NCBI RefSeq assembly: GCF_000186865.1
Contig: NW_008705565.1
Span: 1,759,686-1,823,685 of the forward strand
Length of the DNA: 64,000 bases
Direction: 5' to 3'
Source: Aureococcus anophagefferens
Taxonomy: Eukaryota > Sar > Pelagophyceae > Pelagomonadales > Pelagomonadaceae
Part shown: positions 17,028-42,008 of the stretch, in pieces
Layout: every line of letters starts with the position of its first letter
Numbering within the stretch: position 1 is the first letter of the stretch
Notes under the pieces: generated by a model
The model's database searches: none
What the model saw: only the letters and a program-made list of their open reading frames with translations
What the model was told of the DNA's origin: nothing
Program-made: the position numbers and the translations under genes

Positions 17028-20000
17028 TCAGGAGACGACGAGGCGCTTGCGCACGGTCACCTTGGGCGTCTCGCCCGGGGCCGCGCGCCAGAAGCGTAGG
17101 ATGGTCCTCTCTCTCAGGGAAGGGATTTTGAGCTGGGTCATCGGCACGCGGACGTGGACGAGGACGTTGTAGCCCTTCTTCTTGAGCTGGCTGATGATGA
17201 GGTCGCAGGGGGGCGTGCCAAAAAACGCGGGGACATTCTCCACGAAGCCGGCCTCGAGCTGCTTGTGGGTGTCGTGGTAGAGGAGGATCCAGATGAAACG
17301 CGCCTGCGTAGGAATCGTACTGAAGGTGAGAATATTTGCGCGCTCGGGACACGACTCTTTCGACCATCGTTCGAGATCTCGACCGTCCTTCGAAAGCTCG
17401 ACGAGAGAACACGAGTCGTCCAAAAGTCGGGCGAAACGACGTCGATGTGACCGAGACTGAAGTTCGGGTACCGCGCGGAAGCGCGCCACGAGCCAGACGT
17501 GGCTCCGGAGGGCAAACGGTAGAGTATCGTTGATCTTGGATGACCTAGAATGGCCGCGGCACGGGCCGGTGGCATTAAGAAAAAGTGAAGAGCCGCTCTT
17601 GAGCGCCTTCCTGGCGATGCCGGACGCCTCGGCCGCGTCTTCGAGGTCAGCGGCGACCTACGAAGCACCCCGACGACGATTTCGTGTCGCCCCGGTCGAA
17701 CACTCTCGAACGTAGCCACAGCCAGGACGCCGGCGGCCACCTTGCGCCCAAGCACGCCCATCTCATTGCAGAGCTTGAGGCGCTCGTCGTCGTTGTCCGT
17801 AGACAGCGACGCGGAGGAGCCGAGCCCTCCGGCCTGGCATCCGAGGGTGCCGAAGCCGGCGCCGACCCCGACGGAGAGCACCGCCGTGCCCGGGGACACG
17901 GCGCCGGCCTTGATCATCTGCTCCTGCGTGCGTGCGTGCGTCGGACCGAAATGAAGCCCTCGGCGTTCGGCCCCGCGCGGTCGAATCGTAGGCGTTTTTG
18001 GTCGATTCTGCGACGAGCGATCGCCTCTCGTCTCGACGCGACGCGCGACCTTCCACACGCCGTGCCGCGCGGTGATGCAGCGCGCGGCCCTGGGCATGAG
18101 CGCGTCGGCGAGCATGTGGCCGGCCTGCGCGCGATCGATAACGCAGGGGCAGGGCAAGGATCGGGATGCTCACCTTGGTTTTGTTTCCTCTCGCCTCGGC
18201 GAAGTTCAGAAATGCCTTCCGCTGCTTCACGTTTAATTCAAAGATGCCACAAAGCCGGGACGCCGACGACTGGAACTTGTCCGGCACTTTGACCTTGCCG
18301 TTCGCGGCCTTCTTCGAGGAAAAGCCGGAGGCCTTGATGGCGGCGATGTCGTCGTGGTTCTCGACGGTCGACAACGCGCTTAGACAGGACCGACGTAACG
18401 TCGGCAGAAACCTGCGTGGCGTGCGCTAGCTCCGTGAATTCGACGTCGTCTGGGCGGCGCGGGGCCGAACGTCGACGTCGTGTCGAATAATTGTTTGGAC
18501 CTCGGACCTACACGGGATGCAAATCTGCGCGAAGCGGCAGTCGCGAGTTGGCGCCGGTGTGGACCATTTCTGGAGTGGAGCGCCAAAAACGGCGCCCCGC
18601 CGGGACCCTCGAGGTCGCGAAGGGAAGGGAGCCGTTCTTGGGCCGTCTCTCTCATAAGGCTCTCTAATTTCTCGACCGTGCACATTTGGGGGCGCTCCAC
18701 GATGGCCTTCGTGAGGTCAATCCAGCCGACGGCGCCGCGCGGGTGCTCGTAGGGGATGAAGGTCTCGTAGACGATGACGTCCTCGAAGACCCAGGCGTGG
18801 ACCTGTGTGGAAATCAACCAGTGAGCTGGGACGTCGGGGCCAAACTTCAGAAATCTCTAGCTCGGTCAAATCGAAGTCGATTCGGCTGATTTTTGGACGA
18901 ATCGATTGCTCTCGTCGAGTTCTCGAAGCACAGCGAAAGAATCTGGTCCAAATCGTTCGATTACGCGCACATTGAAGTCGGGTTGAAGGTTTGATTTCCA
19001 CACAGGCGTGGACCTTTTTGTACTCGACGCTTTCGCGGAGCTCGTCGGCCGTGTCGGGCTCGCCGTCGTCGCGCGCGTGGACGCAGTGCTGCGGCTGGAG
19101 CGCGAGTAGCTCGACGTTGGTCAGCGGGCCCCGGGCCTCGGCCAACAAGCACTCGCCCATGACCATTGACCTGCCGCGCGACGATGACGATATTTCGACG
19201 TTTCCCCGGCCAAAAATCTCGAAATTCGGACGCAGGCGTTGACGACTTGGAGCAGATCAATCCAATCCGCTGGCCGACCTTGGCCGTGCCCTTGCCGCGG
19301 AGCTCGACCGTCTTCTCCCCGCGCAGGATCTTTTCGAGCCACTCGGCCTTGATGGGCAGCCCAAATTCGGGGCGGTCTCCGGGCTCGACGCGCGCCGTCG
19401 ACGCCAGCGCGGCGTCCATCTGGGCCACGACCTCGGCCTTCTTCGCGTCCGCGGCGGACGAGCCGCTGGGCTCCGGCGGGAGCGCGCGCGGCCGTTCCGG
19501 CGGGAGCGCGCGCGGCCGCCGCAGCTCGTCCTCGCCGTCGTCGCTGTCGAAGTCGACGTCGTCGTCGGAGACGTCGTCGTCGGAGATGACGGCGACGGAG
19601 AGCTCGCCCGCGTCCAAGCCCATGGCCCCGGCGCCGTCCTTGCAGCTGTCGCCGTCGCCGCCGTCGTCCCTGCGGCCGTCGCCGCCGCCGCCGCCGTCGT
19701 CCTCGCCGAAGTAGAAGCCGCCGGGGCCCAAGTCGTCGGCGACCACGCCCGCCTGCGTGTAGACCTTGCCCGCGTCCGTGTACCGCACGGTGACCGTTTC
19801 CACTACTGCCTCACACCTTCTGATCCAGCCGTCTTCGTCCCGCCACAAGACGTCGATCGGGAGCTCTTTATGGAGCCGGCGCCACTGAAGCTTGCGTCGC
19901 GTCGCCTCCGCGGCCGCTCGCCGCGCCGCTCGCGCCGCCACCGCCGCTTGCATCACCTTGAAGACCCGCAGGCGCGCGAGAAATCTCGTCGACTTCTCGC

Positions 20001-39211: not shown

Positions 39212-42008
39212 CTAGACGTCGACGGCGGCGGCGCCCGCGCCGCGCCGCTGCTCGAGGTCGTCCTCGATGGCGGCCGTCTCGAGCGCGGGCCGCACGAGCG
39301 TCACGCGGCGCTTGTGGCGGCCGTCGCCGAGGAGCGCCGCGAGCAGCGCGGGGTTGGCCGGGAAGTTGCCGTTGACGCCGACGACGCGGTCGCCGTCGCG
39401 GATCGTCGACGACCCGTAGGCGAGCTGGACCGTCGGCACGGTGTGCGCGGAGCAGCCGGCGACGACGAGCGACGCCGCGTAGCGCACGCGGCCGAAGTCG
39501 ACGGGCTCGCCGGCGTAGCAGCGGAGGCCGAGCTTCGGCGTGACGCCGCGCCGCGCCTTCTCGGAGACCGTGATCTCGTAGCGGTGGCCGTCGGCGCAGG
39601 AGTGCGTCGCGCGGAACTTGGCCGACTCGTCCCGGCGCATGCGGCGCGCCGCCGGCGGCGCCGTGCGCAGCTGCTCGAGCGTCCGGACCGTCGCGGTCTC
39701 TTCTTTGACCGGGCTCCCGTCGGACTCCCCGTCGGACGCCGCGTCGGAGCCGGCCTCGGAGTCGTCGCGGGCGGCGGTCGCGCCGCCGGGCGCCGCGGGC
39801 CCGTCGGCGCGCGCGTCGCCGCGCCGGGCCCGGGCCTCGCGCGCGCGCGCCTCCCCGCGCTGCGCCTGCGCGTCCCGGAGGATGGCCTCGCGCCGCGCGT
39901 CGACCATCATCTTCTGCGACGAGTTGAAGGACACGGGGCCCGGCTCGTACATGCGCCCCGCGGCGAGGCGCGGGTCCGCCTGGCCCTTCTTGCCGTGCTC
40001 GCCGCCGTAGAGCTGGCGCAGCAGCGCGCGGCGCAGGTGCGTCGCGTCCTGGCGCGCGCCCGACGGCCCGGCCTCGTCGCCGCTCGACGCGCCCGTCGCG
40101 TCGCCGTCCGTCTCCGCGCCGTCGGCGGCCCGCGACCGCCCGAAGGCCCGGCGGAGCCGCGCGGCGACGCCGCCGCCGCCGGAGTCCGTGAGCTCCTGGG
40201 TCAGGCTCTTCCGCGCCGCGACGGACGCCGCGGCGCCCTGGAGCTTCGCGGCCGTCGCCGCGGCCTTGCCGCCGCGCGAGAGCGCGAAGGCGACGAGCCG
40301 GGCCTCGTTGTCGCCGTCGAACTCGAAGTCGCCGGACTCGGTGTTGCGCCAGCCCCGGACGCCCACGTGGCCGTAGAGGTCGCGGGTCTGCGCCGAGAAG
40401 TAGGAGATGAGCTCGGACGTGGGCATGGGCTCGGGCCGCGGCGCTTGGGCGTCGTCGCGGCGCCGCGGCCGGTCGACGCGGCGCCACCGGTCGCCGTCGA
40501 AGACGCAGCGCTGGAGCACGAAGCGCTCCTTGGACCGCGTGGCGCCGTCGGCGTCGAAGCGGCCCGCGAAGAAGTCGCCGTAGCTCAGGACGACGGTCTC
40601 GGACCACCACGCGGCGCCGCGGCGCTCGCCGCCCGGCGCGACGTGCTCGTAGACGACCTTGAGCGGCAGGTGCTGGGGCTTCGCCGCCGGCGGCAGCGGG
40701 GCCGGCAGGAGGCAGCCCGGCGGGAGGCGGCCCGGCAGGTGGCGGTCCCGCGCGGGCGGCCGGCCCGGGCCCCCGGCCGCGCCGGCGTCCGCGGGCCGCG
40801 CGCCGCCGTCGGCGCCCGTCCAGTCCGGGTCGAGGAGCGCGACCTGCTCCCAGCGGTCGAAGACGGAGCGGCCGACGCGGCCGTAGGCGCCCCGGGCGTC
40901 GAAGAAGAAGGCGTCCTCGGACTCGAGCTCGTCCAAAAGCCGCGAGAAGTTGCGGTAGAAGCGGTCGCAGCGGCTCTTGCCGTCGTCGGCGACGTCGACG
41001 GACGCGCCGTGGTCGAAGGCGACGTCGATGGACGACCGCCGGCCGCGGGCGTCCCGGAGCCAGAGGCTCAGGTGCTTCTCGGGCGCGAGCTGCGTGATGA
41101 GGTCTCTTAGGAACTCCGACGCGTAGCCCTGGGTGACGCGGTAGACGTCCTTGAGCCGGTGCTTCCGCGTGCGGCGGCCCACGGTCGTCGTGAGGAAGTG
41201 GCGCGACTTGTCGACGCGCAGCGCCGCGCGCGCCGTGCGCTTCTTCTCGTGGTCCCAGAGGAGCACGGCCTCTCCCTCCTTGGACGTCAGCGCCGCGCGG
41301 AAGTCCTCGAACGCGCGCCACTTCTTCGCCGCCGCCTCGGCGGCGACGGCGCGCGCCTTGAAGGCCGCGCGGCCCCGGTGCCGCCGCCAGGCGCGCTGGA
41401 TCTTGTCGATCTCCCGCTCCATGATCGCCTGTGTGGAAATCAACCACTGGTTTGGGGGGTCCCCACCAAACTTCAGAACTCTCTAGCTCCGTCAAATCGA
41501 TGTCGATTCGGCTGATTTTTGGACGAATCGATCGCTCTCGTCGAGTTCTCGAAGCACAGCGAAAGATTCTGGTCGAAACCGTTCGATTACGCTCACATTG
41601 AAGTCGGGTTGAAGATTTGGAATCCACACAGATGATCGCGAGGTCGCCCGCGACGAGCGCCTTCGCCGCGCGCCGCTTCGCGAGGAAGATGCGCACGCGC
41701 TTCAGCAGGAGCTCGGCCGCCCAGTACTCGTCCACGTCCATGTAGTTGGGCCGCAGCGACGCCGCGATGTTGTAGTTCGTCCAGTGGGCGCGCGCCGCGC
41801 CCGGGTCCTCGGCGGACGACGCGAAGTAGACGCCGCCGCCCTCGAACGTCGGCGCGAACTCCCCGCCGGCCGCGCCCTCGAAGAGCGCGGCGAGCTCGGC
41901 CTTGCGCGCCTGCTCGTCGCTCAGGGTGACCCGGGGGTTGTATTCTTTCTCGGGCGTGGAGAGATCGTCGTCGTCGACGTCGTCGGTGTCGCCGCAGAGC
42001 TTGAACAT
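39212..42008 (-). CDS. IQ-motif protein with PH-like and PDZ-like regions
   Basis: 861 residues; exons 41640-42008 and 39212-41428. The N-terminus starts MFKLCGDTDDVDDDD. After the exon join (GDLAI-MEREIDKIQ) an IQ motif IQRAWRRHRGRAAF could bind calmodulin. A PH-like domain follows (GEAVLLWDHEKKRTA to FYRNFSRLLDEL). The middle is Pro/Arg-rich; SFNSSQKMMVDARREAIL starts a charged helix. The C-terminal ~100 residues end in a PDZ-like core (YGSSTIRDGDRVVGVNG). A membrane-proximal scaffold is plausible but unproven. The intron is a 203-bp introner plus its duplication, giving a GC-AG intron. Confidence 0.65.
41429..41631 (-). mobile_element. Introner, 203 bp, perfect 8-bp duplication
   Basis: Flanked by ATGATCGC at 41421-41428 and 41632-41639. 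Termini CTGTGTGGA...TCCACACAG. Same length and orientation as the element at 18803-19005, with most of the interior identical (e.g. GATTTTTGGACGAATCGAT). The coding-strand donor is GC, the first two bases of the duplication GCGATCAT. A GT-AG alternative would break the frame. No ORF. Confidence 0.93.

Follow-up and report, generated by a model that had tools for sequence, protein, structure and literature searches.

Can a gene be caught at the gain of an intron? It is unusual to observe an intron as it arises, and a minus-strand gene of Aureococcus anophagefferens encoding a protein with an ASCH domain is a textbook case, in which the element, the duplication, the splice sites and the empty paralogous sites can all be read in one genome. 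The window (the whole stretch of DNA that was analysed, 64,000 nucleotides in length) contains the following features at this locus:

18803..19005, minus strand: introner of family 1, a non-autonomous 203-bp element (direct sequence; at least 190 genome copies with both perfect ends)
18803..18817, no strand assigned: arm 1 of the terminal inverted repeat, source of the minus-strand 3' splice site (...TTGATTTCCACACAG)
18991..19005, no strand assigned: arm 2 of the terminal inverted repeat
18795..18802, no strand assigned: target site duplication GCGTGGAC, with which the downstream exon begins (8 nt, minus-strand reading)
19006..19013, no strand assigned: the other copy of the target site duplication (GTCCACGC on the minus strand), the first 8 nt of the predicted intron, with the GT donor
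18803..19013, minus strand: predicted 211-nt GT...AG intron of the ASCH gene (from the reading frame and the match to AURANDRAFT_62698)
19014..19170, minus strand: upstream exon of the ASCH gene, between a predicted 61-nt intron (19171-19231) and the introner
18684..18802, minus strand: downstream exon of the ASCH gene, with the distal boundary predicted from the annotated protein

The inverted ends of the element (CTGTGTGGAAATCAA and TTGATTTCCACACAG) match perfectly over 15 bp, or over 16 bp if one base of the duplication is included, and the original prediction of a 203-bp element with 15-bp perfect inverted termini, lying between two copies of GCGTGGAC, proved correct to the base (18803-19005). 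A third occurrence of GCGTGGAC, at 19075-19082, is irrelevant to the element. Along the coding strand, the upstream exon (...AAAAAG) is followed by GTCCACGC, the element with its terminal CACACAG, a second GTCCACGC and the downstream exon, and the predicted intron runs on the minus strand from 19013 down to 18803 (211 nt, GTCCACGC...CACACAG). A chance origin of this structure is excluded, because both perfect ends were found at the family spacing in 190 places of the genome and in none for a reversed-pattern control. The window was also scanned de novo for perfect 8-bp duplications beside inverted ends. The focal element alone had all 14 of 14 end bases paired; the six other hits, with 12 or 13 paired bases, consisted of GC-rich or simple sequence, and 2 hits in total came from five shuffles.

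Removal of the first GTCCACGC together with the element joins ...ESVEYKK to VHAWVFEDVIVYETFIPYEHPRG... (...ESVEYKK / VHAWVFED...), and a reading in which the element is retained runs into a frameshift or stops. The ASCH domain (PF04266) of the gene scored 21.2 bits at a curated cut-off of 21.2. The best protein match is annotated in A. anophagefferens as the hypothetical protein AURANDRAFT_62698; a second source calls it an ASCH domain protein. This annotated protein, which may itself be a prediction, contains without a break 155 residues from either side of the junction, as translated with two introns removed, and reads YKK/VHAW as predicted. The claim that excision of the element plus one copy of the duplication restores the exon is thus borne out by a product that is identical to the annotated AURANDRAFT_62698 across the junction.

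A genome search with the joined flanks found the focal locus, its duplicate on contig C4, one paralog on contig C8 (84%) and another at a different place on C4 (77%). Each paralog crosses the junction without the element and is as long there as the joined query (258 versus 258 and 242 versus 242; in one DNA alignment eight bases are split off, with the length unchanged), and therefore an empty site exists within the same genome. The paralogs translate as KYRNCYAWVIKD and NYRDCYGWFVKD where the focal gene reads EYKKVHAWVFED. The protein obtained by exact excision is gapless to them at the junction, and alignment with three distant ASCH proteins shows no insert at this point either. A second A. 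anophagefferens protein (P0004) contains the translated paralog stretch L103.

The whole genome (49 Mb, 86 contigs) was searched for further copies. Family 1 comprises at least 190 copies in which both 15-bp ends are perfect and stand 160-188 nt apart, and 678 copies of exactly 203 bp with no more than 3 end mismatches (0 for the reversed-pattern control). Fifty of the 190 perfect-end copies, from contigs C1-C4, formed a pattern set, picked by their ends and not by duplication or gene. The 8-bp duplication was perfect in 42 of these 50 copies, 47 lay in coding sequence under a stricter background rule, and a single reading frame ran across exact excision in 45, the frame not being continuous in L038, L056, L063, L093 and L096. 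Coding sequence was called with a codon table from the four window open reading frames that have Pfam matches and with an author-chosen margin threshold of 15; L009, L056 and L063 were under this margin, and L096 passed though its score was just below 0 (the background rule would exclude it). A similarity-ranked set started from 30 loci, of which 28 had clean ends (L013 and L018 were dropped) and one more (L009) fell below the threshold, leaving 27 copies. The focal insertion and its duplicate on C4 (L001 and L002) are two copies of one insertion, and L002 is counted among the 50. In the test that the original prediction proposed, further genome copies proved to carry duplications (47/50 with at most one mismatch) and to lie in clear coding sequence by codon usage (48/50); the contrary outcome, other copies lacking duplications and lying outside genes, was looked for across the 50 copies and was not seen. 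Judging from reading frames and splice sites, the copies of the family are probably introns.

The origin of the donor can be read from the duplications. Their first two bases on the coding strand were GC in 25 copies, GT in 22 and GA in 1 (n = 48), and the proposal that the GT donor belongs to the duplicated target and the AG to the terminal repeat is upheld family-wide by this GT/GC start in 47/48. GT or GC occupied the mirror place on the opposite strand in 12/48 (Fisher P 1.3e-14 versus 47/48), the position one base further into the duplication in 0/48, and 44 of 189 sampled coding places (Fisher P 6e-23, which is overstated because the sampled places overlap). All 27 copies of the similarity-ranked set followed the rule, as did 70 of the 71 copies in the union of both sets. 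Co-option from the target predicts such a coding-strand donor rule, and an element-internal donor does not. No strong consensus was apparent by eye in the other six bases of the duplication (71 copies), and a donor seemingly needs little beyond GT or GC. When the frequency of each in four coding sequences is taken into account, GT sites were kept about three times as often as GC sites; introner families with up to 50% GC donors are mentioned in a passage of PMC9860276.

The codon phases of the GT donors (18, 2 and 12, versus 16.6, 1.5 and 13.9 expected; P 0.77) follow the GT phases in the four coding sequences. Those of the GC donors (10, 20 and 8, versus 13.6, 10.4 and 13.9 expected; P 0.002) show an excess in one phase, which is unexplained (71 copies). 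In L064 (C3:1340893-1342293), which is clearly coding, the coding-strand duplication starts with GA (GATCTTCT), and the donor would be either this GA or one in the terminal repeat. In L063 (C3:1332048-1333450) both flanks read as coding on the plus strand, but exact excision leaves them out of frame with each other; this copy would be explained better if the donor lay two bases inside the terminal repeat.

The interval 18803-19013 is, we are confident, an A. anophagefferens introner, that is, a MITE-like transposon intron with its donor from the duplication and its AG from the terminal repeat. This reading draws on what can be seen in the sequence: the element, its inverted ends, the duplication, the family, the GT/GC rule, the restored frame and the empty paralogous sites. 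In the proposed mechanism, a short non-autonomous cut-and-paste DNA transposon, moved by a transposase presumably encoded elsewhere, would insert into the ASCH-domain gene, and staggered cutting with repair would duplicate an 8-bp piece of the exon (coding strand, GTCCACGC). The 5' splice site would be given by the first two bases (GT) of the upstream copy of the duplication, and the 3' splice site would come from the element's own end (...TTGATTTCCACACAG). The spliceosome would then, in living cells, take out the copy together with the element (211 nt) and leave the mRNA unchanged, and insertions not beginning with GT or GC would be lost by selection.

A different placing of the donor, inside the terminal repeat (CTGT^GTGG), would leave 12 extra nt (8 of the duplication and 4 of the element) and thus four added amino acids. 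Such a donor is also in frame at the focal gene (...YKKVHACVHAWVFED...), the ASCH domain score with the four-residue insert is almost equal (21.0 versus 21.2 bits), and exactly such a 12-bp addition is given, in the Fig. 2F legend of PMC9860276, for an Aureococcus sp. metagenome genome. It predicts, however, an unconstrained duplication, and the bases observed are GT or GC in 47/48 copies and in 0/48 one base later; moreover, the four-residue insert is found neither in the annotated protein nor in either paralog. We therefore consider a terminal-repeat donor very improbable for the focal intron, and it may apply to single copies such as L064, with its GA duplication.

Two further accounts explain parts of the evidence and have very little probability. 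If a spliced intron had been reverse-spliced into another transcript and then copied into the genome, a near-exclusively coding location and a strand rule would also be produced, but an intron copied from RNA brings its own first 8 nt, whereas here these bases repeat the surrounding exon sequence and vary between copies (perfect in 42/50), and insertion in both orientations (25 along and 46 against the gene, n = 71) also speaks against this route, which we regard as hardly credible. The structure alone is compatible with any MITE, including an ordinary unspliced one that disrupts the gene and leaves a pseudogene or is read through. Retention, however, gives a frameshift or stops, exact excision restores a protein that is gapless to the paralogs at the junction, and the coding-strand GT/GC rule would have no other evident reason; a merely disruptive insertion is accordingly a most unlikely explanation. 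The introner, with its donor taken from the duplicated target, is the reading adopted below.

The element lies along the gene in 20/48 copies of the pattern set (P 0.31) and in 7/27 of the similarity-ranked set (P 0.019). Either end is usable as the acceptor, because both inverted ends finish in CACACAG. Both orientations are used, unequally, and the symmetric ends do not explain the inequality.

Coding sequence held 48 of the 50 pattern-set copies, compared with 189 of 260 overlapping background places (P 1e-4) or 45 of 60 non-overlapping ones (P 0.003), the background consisting of 20 arbitrarily chosen stretches (28 kb). Uniform insertion followed by purging of non-GT/GC copies from coding sequence predicts that approximately 59% of the surviving copies would be non-coding (40-73% when the stretches are bootstrapped), and no more than 3 of the 50 were. 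The near-absence from non-coding DNA would thus exceed what purging alone predicts, a comparison sensitive to the codon model and made against a small background, and it may be an addition to what is known. A preference for GC-rich DNA or open chromatin would also yield an enrichment in coding sequence. According to a passage of PMC9860276 (Gozashti et al. 2022), introners are enriched in genes in 161 of 175 introner-bearing genomes. Together with the small demands apparently made on the donor and the use of both orientations, the near-absence outside coding sequence would let one ask whether the transposase or selection places introns in genes.

Two other places in the window resemble the focal element:

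41429..41631, minus strand: second introner of family 1, 89% identical, with a GC donor; duplication ATGATCGC at 41421-41428 and 41632-41639
17304..17478, minus strand: probable old, decayed introner; 17385-17455 is 82% like family 1; ends placed by eye

The introner at 41429..41631 sits in another gene, and its exact excision restores an open frame (...VAGDLAIMEREIDK...). At 17304..17478 the AG end is kept and the 5' inverted repeat is unrecognisable; the flanking 8-mers, GCGCGCTT and GCGCGTTT, differ by one base (by eye).

The duplicate of the focal locus (L002, C4:1467502-1470720) is a 3.2-kb copy of the ASCH locus including flanks, 98.4% identical, with the same introner. The insertion is common to both duplicates and is therefore older than the local duplication. 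A full haplotig was considered and rejected, since C4 sequence approximately 22 kb away from the duplicated locus showed no match to the window; the duplicate therefore does not reach that far on that side, unless shifted. The original prediction held that the copy looks young. Recent insertion is a fair description, the nearest independent copy being 97% identical (40 of 1750 candidates scored), but the insertion predates the 98.4%-identical duplication, and its youth is thus only relative.

A related family of 192 bp was found in flanking sequences, where four members have 8-bp duplications and ends CAGGGCAG...CTGCCCAG or CAGGGCGG...CCGCCCAG:

L014:226-417: 192-bp relative
L026:1154-1345: 192-bp relative
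L035:479-670: 192-bp relative
L042:2874-3065: 192-bp relative

Three of them have the ends CAGGGCAG...CTGCCCAG and perfect 8-bp duplications, and the fourth has CAGGGCGG...CCGCCCAG. All four are relatives of the type CAGGGC...GCCCAG and lie in predicted coding sequence, with the coding-strand duplication starting with GT or GC and the AG end downstream. When A or T was allowed at the second base from each end, the genome contained 1016 copies of this family, of which 1010 (516 + 494) had CAGGG at one end and CCCAG at the other, i.e. AG at one end only. The two families are related in end-to-end alignment (z 6.8 to 9.4 versus plain shuffles, four copies), and a core, CGGCTGATTTTTGGACGA, is common to most copies of both. 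Reading of the first 80 bases of 63 copies showed the 192-bp interior in one direction in 41 and in the other in 22; the one-ended AG is therefore not tied to a single orientation of the interior. The simplest account, not a proven one, is that a hAT-like CAG...CTG ancestor may have gained AG at either end (192-bp family) or at both (203-bp family). A broader proposal, which we put forward only tentatively and consider doubtful as a whole, is that both families form one homologous MITE lineage made capable of forming introns by a single end-base change (at both ends in the 203-bp family; at one, independently either, in the 192-bp family), and that insertion is in addition directed to coding sequence. 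No treatment of the one-ended family was recognised in the passages that the literature search covered, and we do not claim that it is unpublished.

The inverted ends fold into a long RNA stem in both families. Hairpin-guided splicing was set aside, since the ends of transposons are inverted anyway and the stem is uninformative. Mismatches in the terminal repeats of the 27 similarity-ranked copies numbered 10 at the 5' end (in 5 copies) versus 3 at the 3' end (in 1 copy), which is not significant (P 0.09).

Searches of the whole genome for transposase families gave no match to PF05699, PF04937 (hAT) or PF18758 (KDZ), for which the control genomes were also without a match, and none to PF10551 (MULE) or PF12762 (IS1595/Merlin). 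PF13359 (Harbinger) had 4 genome matches and was rejected as a partner, neither CTGTGTG nor CACACAG being present in the four surrounding loci. IMG/VR, from which records very near the source genome may be absent, held no copy with both perfect ends. Viral carriers were likewise rejected: the shared 18-base core occurred in two IMG/VR contigs, with only 18-20 bases matching, inside open frames, and these matches are taken as chance.

The introner mechanism is already known in A. anophagefferens, where it was reportedly described by Huff, Zilberman and Roy in 2016 (Nature), and the focal case is a real and clear one. The attribution to the pelagophytes was right, the species being A. anophagefferens itself, in which the mechanism was described, and the asserted match to that mechanism extends to the inverted ends, the 8-bp duplications and the co-opted donor. 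Compared by description, not by sequence, the focal element shows no established difference from the introners of Huff 2016, which are also reported to insert between nucleosomes. Some introners of Micromonas pusilla are likewise non-autonomous DNA elements that give rise to introns by co-opting one splice site; this species is a green alga, and the likeness is one of description, not of sequence. MITEs of the hAT type make 8-bp duplications and have ends that start with CAG or TAG (consensus). Family 1 is like them in its 8-bp target duplication and unlike them in starting with CTG instead of CAG, while the 192-bp family begins with CAGGGC, which resembles hAT ends, with a CAG start at one end only.

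The published descriptions agree with the focal case. A. anophagefferens introners always show direct repeats and inverted ends, each constant in length (PMC7789003), have one carried and one co-opted splice site (PMC12403724, crediting Huff et al.) and have a characteristic length of approximately 210 bp (PMC9481584); the element studied here shares the species, the inverted ends, repeats of constant length, the co-opted splice site and the length (211 versus approximately 210 bp). Introner family 4 of Aureococcus sp. TARA (PMC9860276) is of the same genus and has an 8-bp duplication, and the four bases that it retains from the element would equal CTGT here in length. In that family, however, both splice sites are carried and 12 nt are added, whereas here the duplication supplies the donor and nothing is added; its intron is 77 bp by coordinates, versus 211 nt here. 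The use of both orientations and the one-ended 192-bp family may or may not figure in Huff 2016. Possible additions to the known system are thus the unequal use of both orientations, the related one-ended family of approximately 1016 copies and the near-absence from non-coding DNA.
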